Below, piece by piece: positions 48,049 to 50,932 of a stretch of DNA of 64,000 bases. The notes under the pieces were generated by a model. It searched no databases. It had not been told where the DNA came from and saw only the letters and a list, made by a program, of their open reading frames with translations. A program made the position numbers and the translations under genes. Source of the stretch: Aristaeella lactis (GTDB lineage Bacteria; Bacillota; Clostridia; Christensenellales; Aristaeellaceae); NCBI RefSeq assembly GCF_018118585.1, contig NZ_CP069421.1:2852001-2916000 (forward strand), in the 5' to 3' direction. How positions within the stretch are numbered: the stretch's first letter is position 1; every line of letters begins with the position of its first letter.

Positions 48049-48078
48049 TTGGACAGGGAAAAAAGCGGCGGCTATAAT
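48049..48078 (+). promoter_or_regulatory. metQ promoter
   Basis: TTGGAC and a perfect TATAAT separated by 18 bases. It would give a leader of about 148 bases that includes the 24-codon ORF. Confidence 0.65.
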
Positions 48079-48186: not shown

Positions 48187-48231
48187 AACTGAAATAAAAC
48201 TTTGTTTTGTAAATATGAAAGGAGTATTCCC

Positions 48232-49065
48232 ATGAAAAAGATTATCGCTCTGCTGGCTGCCCTGGTTCTGACCCTGTCCCTGACCGCCGCTTTCGCGGAC
48301 GGTATCAAGATCGCTGTTCCCAATGACGCCACCAACGAAGGCCGCGCTCTGCTGCTGCTCCAGGCCTACGGACTGCTGAAGGTTGATGAGGCCGCCGGTA
48401 TTACCGCGACGGTTAAGGATATCACCGAGAATCCCCTGAACATTGAGTTCGTTGAAGTGGAAGCCGCGCTGGTTCCCAACGCCCTGCCGGATGTGGACTA
48501 CGCCATCATCAACGGCAACTACGCGCTGGCCGCTGAACTGCCTGCCGCCCTGCTGTACGAAAATGCTGAATCCCCCTACGTGAACGTGATCAGCGTGAAC
48601 GAAGCGGACAAGGACAGCGACAAAGCCAAGGCCCTGGCTGCCGCGGCGCTGAGCCAGAAGGTTGTGGACTACTTCGCCAGCTATGAAGGACAGGCCATCT
48701 CCGTGGTCGAGAATCCCACCGACGGTTATGACGCCACCGTGGATTACGATGCCCTGAACGGCGAGACCATCAAGGTGGTTGCCACGCTGGATCCCCACTC
48801 CTTCGTGCTGGAGATCGTCAAGGATATCCTGGCTGAAAAGGGAATCAACCTGGAAGTGACCGTTGTGGATGACTATGTGACTCCCAACACCGCCGTGAAC
48901 GACGGAGACGCCTTCGCGAACTTCTTCGCCCACCAGCCCTATCAGGATGACTTCAATGCCAACAACGGCACCAACCTGGTGACCATTGCCGGTGTGCATG
49001 TTGAGCCCATGGGCCTCTACGCCGGACAGCAGGCTGACCTGGCCGCGCTGGGACTGGCTGAATAA
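48232..49065 (+). CDS. MetQ-type substrate-binding protein, circularly permuted
   Basis: The 277-residue extracellular binding protein of the neighbouring MetNI transporter. Residues 1-22 are a signal peptide ending AAFA, without a lipobox Cys. Residues 24-160 match the C-terminal part of normal MetQ (IKIAVPNDATNEGRALLLLQ, TVKDITENPLN, SPYVNVI). Residues 178-264 match the N-terminal part (IKVVATLDPHS, DDYVTPNTAVNDGD, HVEPMGLYAG). In ordinary MetQ the second block precedes the first, so the chain is circularly permuted at the hinge. AAAGGAGTATTCCC precedes the ATG. Without lipidation, retention at the cell surface is unclear. Confidence 0.9.
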   Translation: MKKIIALLAALVLTLSLTAAFADGIKIAVPNDATNEGRALLLLQAYGLLKVDEAAGITATVKDITENPLNIEFVEVEAALVPNALPDVDYAIINGNYALAAELPAALLYENAESPYVNVISVNEADKDSDKAKALAAAALSQKVVDYFASYEGQAISVVENPTDGYDATVDYDALNGETIKVVATLDPHSFVLEIVKDILAEKGINLEVTVVDDYVTPNTAVNDGDAFANFFAHQPYQDDFNANNGTNLVTIAGVHVEPMGLYAGQQADLAALGLAE

Positions 49066-49082: not shown

Positions 49083-49115
49083 CAAAGGCATCCGGGAAAT
49101 CCCCGGATGCCTTTT
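49083..49115 (+). terminator. Terminator between metQ and metN
   Basis: AAGGCATCCGGG and CCCGGATGCCTT form a 12-bp stem with a short loop, followed by TT. It separates the abundant binding protein from the transporter genes, which have another promoter. Confidence 0.75.
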
Positions 49116-49193: not shown

Positions 49194-50222
49194 ATGATTG
49201 AGCTGAAGAATCTGTCCAAGCAGTTTGAGACGGCAGACGGGTCGGTGGACGCGCTGCGTCATATCAACCTGACCATCCGGGACGGGGATATTTACGGGAT
49301 CATAGGCATGAGCGGCGCGGGCAAGAGTACCCTGGTGCGCTGTATCAACATGCTGGAGAGGCCCACGGAAGGTTCGGTGCTGGTAAACGGCAAGGATATC
49401 GGCGCGCTGAAACAGAAGGAACTGCGCGCTATGCGCCGGAAGATCACCATGATCTTCCAGGGTTTCAACCTGCTGATGCAGCGGACCTGCCTGAAGAACG
49501 TGACGCTTCCCCTGCGGCTCAGCGGAATTGATCGGAAGACGGCTGAAGCCAAAGCCCGTGAACTGCTGGCGCTTGTTGATCTTCCGGACAAGGCCAACAG
49601 CTATCCGGCCCAGCTGTCCGGCGGCCAGCAGCAGCGTGTGGCGATCGCCCGCGCGCTGGCAACAGAACCGGATGTGCTTCTGTGCGATGAGGCTACTTCC
49701 GCGCTGGACCCGAAAACAACGCATTCCATCCTGGAACTGATCCGGGATATCAATAAAAAACTGGGGATCACCGTGATCGTGATCACCCACCAGATGAGCG
49801 TGGTTCAGGAAGTCTGCAACCGAGTGGCCATTCTGGAAAACGGTGAAGTGGTGGAAGAAGGCGGCGTAGCCGAGGTCTTCTCGAACCCCCGTGCCAACGC
49901 GACCCGGAACCTGATCTATCCGGAAAGCGCGGACGGCGGTTCCGTTTTCCCGGAGGGCGGCCAGCGGGTCCGTGTGATTTTCAACGGCGCTGTGGCATCC
50001 CGGGAGCCCCTGATCGCAAAGATGGCTGTGGACTGCGGGATCATGGCAAGTATCCTGGGTGCGTCCACCCGTTCCGTGGGAGACCGGGCCTACGGCTATA
50101 TGCTGCTGGATATTCCCGGCTCACCGGAAAACCTGGCGAAGGCAGTTTCCTACCTGAGCGCCACACCGGATATTACCGTACAGGTTGAGGCGGAATACGC
50201 CGCTAAGGAGGTGGAAGCATGA
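49194..50222 (+). CDS. metN: Methionine ABC transporter ATP-binding protein
   Basis: The 342-residue ATPase of the methionine importer. Walker A is GMSGAGKSTLVRC, the signature is LSGGQQQRV, Walker B is LLCDEATSALDP and the switch is VVITHQMSV. Residues of about 255-342 form the NIL domain (VRVIFNGAVASREPLIAKMA), which binds methionine and inhibits transport when the cell is replete. It overlaps metI by four bases. Confidence 0.95.
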   Translation: MIELKNLSKQFETADGSVDALRHINLTIRDGDIYGIIGMSGAGKSTLVRCINMLERPTEGSVLVNGKDIGALKQKELRAMRRKITMIFQGFNLLMQRTCLKNVTLPLRLSGIDRKTAEAKARELLALVDLPDKANSYPAQLSGGQQQRVAIARALATEPDVLLCDEATSALDPKTTHSILELIRDINKKLGITVIVITHQMSVVQEVCNRVAILENGEVVEEGGVAEVFSNPRANATRNLIYPESADGGSVFPEGGQRVRVIFNGAVASREPLIAKMAVDCGIMASILGASTRSVGDRAYGYMLLDIPGSPENLAKAVSYLSATPDITVQVEAEYAAKEVEA

Positions 50223-50932
50223 ATAACTTTGCCAATGCTTTTACCCCGGAACGCCTGCAGGAAGCCTGGGAATGCCTGCAGAACGAATTCCCCTTTGCCA
50301 TCTGGGAGACTCTTTATTCCACTTTACTGGCTACCCTGTTCGCTGTGATCATCGGCCTGCCCCTGGGCGTGCTGCTTGTGACAGGCGAGAAAAAGGGCAT
50401 CCGGCCCCTGCCGTCTTCCCTGATGGGTTTCCTGAACGTGCTGATCAACCTGCTCCGTTCCATTCCGTTCATCATCCTGATGGTGATGATTATTCCACTG
50501 ACAAGGCTGATCGTTGGTACCTCCCTGGGAACAGTGGCCTCCATTGTTCCGCTGACTATCGCGGCATTTCCGTTCATCGCCCGGCTGGTGGAAAGCAGCC
50601 TGCGGGAAGTGAACCCGAATATCATCGAAACAGCCCAGTCCATGGGCGCGTCTCCGATGCAGATCGTGCTGCATGTGATGCTGCCGGAAAGCGTTCCGAG
50701 CCTGGTGACCAACATTACGCTGGCGATCACGACCATCATGGGATATACTGCCATGTCCGGCGCGGTCGGCGGCGGCGGCCTGGGTAAGCTGGCGCTGGCT
50801 TACGGTTACCAGCGGTACCGCTACGCGGTGCTGTACCTGGCGGTGATTGTGCTGGTGGTGATTACCCAGATCATCCAGTCCTTCGGCACCTGGCTGGCGG
50901 CAAAACTGGACAAGCGGCTGAAGAACAAATAA
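50219..50932 (+). CDS. metI: Methionine ABC transporter permease
   Basis: The 237-residue membrane subunit with five hydrophobic segments. The family signature is GASPMQIVLHVMLPESVPSL (EAA loop contacting MetN), and TAMSGAVGGGGLGKLAL is the conserved late segment. The ATG overlaps the metN stop (ATGA). The operon ends at a strong terminator. Confidence 0.94.
   Translation: MNNFANAFTPERLQEAWECLQNEFPFAIWETLYSTLLATLFAVIIGLPLGVLLVTGEKKGIRPLPSSLMGFLNVLINLLRSIPFIILMVMIIPLTRLIVGTSLGTVASIVPLTIAAFPFIARLVESSLREVNPNIIETAQSMGASPMQIVLHVMLPESVPSLVTNITLAITTIMGYTAMSGAVGGGGLGKLALAYGYQRYRYAVLYLAVIVLVVITQIIQSFGTWLAAKLDKRLKNK

Follow-up and report, generated by a model that had tools for sequence, protein, structure and literature searches.

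Circular permutations that arise in nature are usually met between distant homologues. Among MetQ structures, 4YAH is that of E. coli, and 6CVA and 3IR1 are those of N. meningitidis. Type II binding proteins possess a long hinge of two strands (PMC9732360). Methionine is contacted in N. meningitidis MetQ by R156, N213, and N238 in one domain and by Y81, F98, H100, and Y103 in the other (PMC6739813); the lipid of this protein is required for full stimulation of the transporter, and a secreted unlipidated form hardly stimulates (PMC8416018). TpMglB-2 (Tp0684), termed 'Type Ic', is a natural permuted binding protein of an ABC importer, occurs clade-wide, and is encoded beside transporter genes (PMC4990184), features which it shares with the protein described here.

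The window, a stretch of 64,000 nucleotides from Aristaeella lactis (contig NZ_CP069421.1), contains a metQ gene (product P0001, 277 aa plus stop) in which the two MetQ segments stand in exchanged order (Table 1). This order, and a cut at the SLDEL-DG hinge, had been proposed by a sequence-only reading; the profile of PF03180 bears it out, positions 94-225 preceding 1-94 within one frame, the proposed block limits agree with the limits of the profile matches, and a true circular permutation of MetQ is supported. A chance match is excluded by the E-values of the two segments. As a whole, P0001 matches PF03180 at E 2.4e-62 with 210.7 bits, above the Pfam cut-off of 27, and it is a member of the family, yet it lacks the single collinear N-then-C match; against TIGR00363 it scores 136.6 bits, below the cut-off of 228.85. 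P0001 is a permuted branch of the MetQ/NlpA family rather than a standard member. PF03180 is the only Pfam match at E up to 0.001, and the permuted type I glucose/galactose-binding fold of TpMglB-2-like 'Type Ic' proteins was not found by Pfam. Each of the 22 PDB sequences that phmmer found aligns to P0001 as two stretches; the two alignments inspected (4k3f and 4ib2) have the opposite segment order. The gene is the sole PF03180 gene in a 3.45-Mb, 98.8% complete genome.

Table 1. Coordinates of the permuted metQ operon and its elements in the window
Feature	Coordinates	Strand	Basis or remark
Promoter-like site, TGGACA, 17 nt, TATAAT	48050..48078	+	Upstream of metQ; consensus match only
Ribosome-binding-like AAAGGAG, 7 bases before ATG of metQ	48218..48224	+	Read from sequence
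Circularly permuted metQ (P0001)	48232..49065	+	PF03180 profile 94-225 then 1-94, single open frame
Signal peptide, residues 1-22, ...LTAAFA-D, signal-peptidase-I-like	48232..48297	+	Putative, read from sequence
C-segment of MetQ, now first	48292..48678	+	Residues 21-149 = PF03180 94-225, E 3.0e-38
New linker, old C-terminus to old N-terminus, ...ENPTDGYDATVDYDALNG...	48679..48765	+	Conserved in clostridial permutants
N-segment of MetQ, now last	48769..49050	+	Residues 180-273 = PF03180 1-94, E 5.2e-23
13-bp hairpin between metQ and metN	49084..49114	+	-28.3 kcal/mol, z -6.26
metN, ATP-binding subunit with NIL domain	49194..50222	+	PF00005, PF09383; TIGR02314 best
metI, permease	50219..50932	+	PF00528; MetI model best

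The lobes of P0001 are predicted to close into one MetQ fold. The proposal that the binding fold is kept stands as regards the ligand residues, which are present in both lobes, while closure of the lobes depends on the confidence of an AlphaFold model built from 32 permutants (pLDDT 89.9, pTM 0.78); judged by that confidence, the structure prediction named as a possible refutation in the original proposal did not refute it. In Foldseek comparisons with MetQ structures barely more than one segment is covered (best 142 columns, TMq 0.42), and full-length matches in chain order are poor (OpuAC, TMq 0.48, 7.2 A); Foldseek is bound to chain order and so unable to superpose a whole permutant, hence the partial matches of a permuted protein. 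Since both termini of P0001 lie at the first crossing (SLDEL-DG), one inter-lobe strand would be left; the hinge is thus pictured as a single strand with both chain ends beside it, the conserved linker closing the old ends. Blocks of the linker within residues 161-180 are modeled at mean pLDDT of 96 and 98.

Permuted metQ genes are common in some groups of this class and rare beyond it. A first survey covered 61 related genomes, 37 of the same genus and 24 from other families of the order. PF03180 genes of C-then-N order are present in 34 of the 37 genus genomes (37 genes in total), of which G022 and G035 are single-contig; seven of the 37 additionally carry N-then-C genes (nine genes), and the three without any match (G013, G032, and G034) are 54-77% complete. 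Among the 24 other-family genomes of the order, a swapped gene occurs in none and an ordinary one in seven, and 17 have no match. Within the class sample (391 genomes, 180 with a match), G000, the genome of the window, and at least 17 further species of nine other families feature a single full-length collinear match to P0001 among matches listed down to about E 7e-26, with a diverged collinear match in G318 also among those listed. With the re-permuted protein described below as query, 219 of 398 genomes sampled across the phylum matched; among the matches listed the swapped order appears in G000, G061, and G555 only, and no further re-permuted gene is among those listed. The swapped order is an old inherited form common to many gut and rumen bacteria, and the premise that MetQ lobe order is fixed fails across this class. 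Four proteins from MAGs titled Anaerolineaceae, Chloroflexi, or Flexilinea (L035, L040, L041, and L042) sit within the permuted clade of the genus, as either mislabelled MAGs or transfers.

As to whether proteins of this block order make up a clade, a question raised with the original proposal, the clostridial permutants form one clade when long-branched rows are excluded. For the MetQ trees the two core segments were placed in one common order and the linker was left out; with rows removed for long branches or thinning, all clostridial permuted rows fall together to one side of a branch in the trees of 89 of 103 rows (47/47), 74 of 97 rows (46/46), and 70 rows (31/31), with support from 100/99.9 to 100/100. 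Where long branches are kept, one tree does not have the permutants on a single branch, with three changes at a weak 60/75 split, and the 97-row tree (duplicates and a hand-picked list of rows removed) groups 45 rows, 44 CN plus the NCN, at 82/80 with L060 outside. MetN and MetI offer a quick tree from independent genes, for 63 of 84 loci possessing both; those of 26 main-type permuted loci form one clade (SH-aLRT 99), and their nearest ordinary-order relatives are from Oscillospiraceae (L084, L090, L097, and L107). Of 63 distinct main-type proteins, 61 have a linker (...NPTDGYDxTVDYxALxG...) that fits a motif, and the remaining two carry near-variants.

Two members of this clade, L069 and L070, have been permuted a second time. 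Their PF03180 order is profile 45-234 followed by 1-45; they are 99% identical, stem from two MAGs that were sequenced in separate runs, and are each the sole PF03180 gene detected in the respective genome. Both retain the main-type linker and have a lipobox. In the 97- and 70-row trees they form a pair with L065 within the permuted clade, and their MetNI likewise pairs with that of L065 (SH-aLRT 90). From this nesting and the retained linker it follows that the chain was cut anew in the N-lobe and rejoined at the hinge junction; the re-permuted protein would again have two inter-lobe strands. Its AlphaFold model (pLDDT 89.3, pTM 0.80) aligns with 4k3f, 4ib2, 3tqw, and 6cva over about 186-190 columns at 2.1-2.6 A by chain-order Foldseek, which is applicable because most of its order is ordinary; all seven ligand residues are present.

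Two further permuted groups bear on the number of origins. Type B comprises nine distinct proteins, seven of the genus, one from G453, and L161 (G318, of another family); the cut site is that of the main type, however the linker is longer and unrelated, with the main motif in 0/9. A Neisseriaceae-labelled pair, L071 (identical to L194) and L193, accounts for two of 61 relatives and has a third linker (main motif 0/2) and the gene order metN-metI-metQ. In the MetNI tree the transporters of the main, type B, and Neisseriaceae-labelled groups fall in three separate places, L178 (a duplicate of G448) grouping with L071 and L194. The different linkers and transporter lineages suggest, short of proof, repeated permutation at one hinge, and the Neisseriaceae-labelled permutants may be independently derived. 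A tentative reading, given nearly an even chance, is that MetQ topology evolves freely, the hinge having been permuted at least two to three times (main, type B, and Neisseriaceae-labelled) and the L069/L070 permutant re-permuted by a cut in the N-lobe with the hinge rejoined. It is a substantial possibility, somewhat short of even, that all permuted MetQs instead descend from one permutation and that binding proteins were later exchanged between transporters: the cut site is identical in all groups, and a single permuted clade is not rejected by the AU test when it includes L071 (p 0.51, 74-row tree) or L193 and L194 (p 0.524, 70-row tree). Against a single event stand the three unrelated linkers (61/63, 0/9, and 0/2 for the main motif), the scattered transporters, and the deviating operon order of the Neisseriaceae-labelled pair. 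Repeated origin is limited as a reading because the AU test does not reject one clade and binding proteins can switch partners.

Tandem duplication and trimming, as in the initial proposal, with a fusion step, is a plausible route to the permuted gene. An N-C-N-C intermediate was not found; four long candidate frames from the class sample were examined and none fitted. In L182 and L183 an ordinary-order MetQ is fused to SBP_bac_3; L184 (G404) is similar to L183, and in L185 an unrelated frame precedes an ordinary MetQ. The first two (L182:949-2604, from G140; L183:1370-3031, from G193) combine an SBP_bac_3 domain with a complete MetQ in a lipoprotein-like chain of about 550 residues. In G009, G012, and G020 a type B permuted gene stands next to an ordinary one, the array being metN-metI-Q(ordinary)-Q(permuted)-metN-metI (L162, L165, and L166); both of its binding proteins are diverged and lack a lipobox, and the adjacent Q pair recurs in L163 and L164. 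The idea that permutation also brought about a change of gene order, from metN-metI-metQ to metQ-metN-metI, was dropped, because metQ-first loci of ordinary order exist (L009, L010, L072, L073, L075, L087, and L102).

The metNI genes lie directly downstream of the permuted metQ on the same strand; the sequence-only reading had noted a neighboring metNI. MetN scores 352 bits against TIGR02314 (cut-off 499.7) and MetI 202.9 bits against the MetI model (cut-off 212). The promoter-like site matches 11 of 12 consensus positions; five such sites occur in 3.6 kb compared to 2.0 (sd 1.4) in shuffled sequence. None of 200 shuffles is as stable as the hairpin between metQ and metN, which is absent from the terminator-scan output; it is possibly an attenuator favoring MetQ over MetNI. 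Neither a methionine riboswitch nor any other Rfam family exceeds its gathering score in the 16 kb surrounding the operon or at 16 related loci.

P0001 very probably works as the binding protein of the MetNI methionine importer next to it, in a permuted form inherited from a clostridial ancestor. The seven methionine contacts of N. meningitidis MetQ, mapped by motif and spacing through 4k3f as a bridge rather than by direct alignment, correspond to R38, N96, and N118 in the C-segment and to Y215, F232, H234, and Y237 in the N-segment; 7/7 are present, and none of the seven columns varies in the alignment of 32 permutants, so that methionine binding is likely on the basis of these residues. P0001 would be exported by Sec and then probably cleaved by signal peptidase I; the old C-segment would fold first and the old N-segment second, giving the usual two-lobed cleft, in which methionine would be held by the three residues of one lobe and the four of the other before delivery to MetNI. 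That the permuted protein serves another ligand, with MetNI merely an ancestral partner, is unlikely: retention of the complete ligand site and the adjoining metI and NIL-domain metN oppose it, although metNI does not adjoin in some members, no methionine riboswitch was found in the regions searched, the NCBIfam scores of P0001, MetN, and MetI are all under cut-off, and the genus carries FFAH at a site that reads FxQH in most MetQs. In the members in question, L052, L053, and L057, the main-type permuted metQ has neither metN nor metI to a distance of about 5 kb.

P0001 contains no cysteine at all and its signal peptide ends ...LTAAFA-D, which confirms the reported lack of a lipobox; a connection of the missing anchor with the permutation is contradicted. 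By regular expression and a check by eye, a lipobox is present in the permutants of 17/17 other-family genomes (L144-L160) and in L059-L068, but in 0/24 genus permuted genes with the N-terminus seen (of 37) and 0/9 ordinary-order MetQs of the genus. Hits to the expression in L022 and L029 of the genus were rejected for a badly placed Cys (a non-canonical TATC followed by AMA-D, and a membrane anchor with the Cys at residue 11, respectively). These patterns indicate that loss of the Cys is a lineage habit which arose after the permutation and independently of it. A loss of the lipoprotein machinery is rejected, Lgt being present in 61/61 and LspA in 54/61 genomes, that of the window included. 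It is very unlikely that the permutation re-sited the tether at the hinge or freed the anchor, as one joint adaptation with lipobox loss. P0001 does combine both traits, and the authors who described TpMglB-2, the relatives of which are probably tethered, raised the idea (PMC4990184); however, permuted proteins with a lipobox (those of the 17 other-family genomes, L059-L068, and both re-permuted proteins) and the nine unpermuted genus genes without one dissociate the two, and most SBP_bac_1 proteins of this genome likewise have no lipobox: of 24 matches, 22 have a visible N-terminus, with four lipoboxes, two unclear, and 16 without, judged by eye. The result on unlipidated N. meningitidis MetQ counts against efficient coupling of unlipidated P0001, unless this MetNI differs. 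By eye, the permuted MetQs of L029, L031, L047, L048, and L050 seem to be anchored by an uncleaved N-terminal helix. PF01790 (Lgt-like) matches number 2-8 per genus genome, with seven in G000, versus 1-3 in the 24 other-family genomes of the order; the extra matches occur in a lineage whose binding proteins are mostly without lipobox.

A sequence or assembly artefact, or a gene decaying in one genome, has practically negligible probability; many relatives are fragmented metagenome assemblies, though no support for this was found, while recurrence of the permuted gene in 34 of 37 genus genomes (two single-contig) and in 17 species of nine other families rules out misassembly, the alternative the sequence-only reading had flagged, and the linker is conserved and the ligand residues are invariant in 32 sequences.

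Ordinary, once-permuted, and twice-permuted MetQs of about 50% identity occur beside the same transporter, and would permit binding-protein folding, hinge motion, and docking to be compared with chain order as the sole change. They offer a test of whether both hinge strands are needed in a type II binding protein, and of whether lipid anchoring and tether position matter for MetNI. If repeated and serial permutation is true, serial circular permutation occurs naturally in a single orthologous importer, and the venus-flytrap hinge can do without one of its two strands. For annotation, the locus is a warning that collinear family models under-score permuted proteins.

A literature search, with most subscription papers outside its reach, found no report of a permuted MetQ/NlpA protein; on that search, permuted binding proteins are already known, and permuted MetQ and serial permutation are new, the latter within MetQ being the most novel part of the finding. 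P0001 resembles MetQ/NlpA (PF03180) in both segments exceeding the Pfam cut-off, in its ligand residues, and in its metNI partner, and differs by C-N order, a new linker, ends at the hinge, and, in this genus, the lack of a lipobox. Binding proteins designed as permutants or as halves, an example being the permuted ribose-binding protein halves (PMC9815098), demonstrate that new ends, as in P0001, are tolerated by the fold; these were engineered and are not natural. OpuAC versus ProX (glycine-betaine) and the molybdate binders are permutants identified by CPSARST and are type II like P0001 (PMC2395249), and OpuAC is among the better, though poor, full-length chain-order matches of the P0001 model; those cases are structural, with under 24% identity between families (PMC2395249), whereas P0001 and its order-swapped relatives belong to one sequence family, at about 50% identity. 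TpMglB-2 is a type I sugar binder outside PF03180, the permuted part of which has only 13% identity to E. coli MglB, for which reason its acquisition from another gene was considered (PMC4990184), whereas both segments of P0001 are plain MetQ; the permutation of TpMglB-2 adds a fourth cross-over (PMC4990184), while the cut in P0001 removes one.
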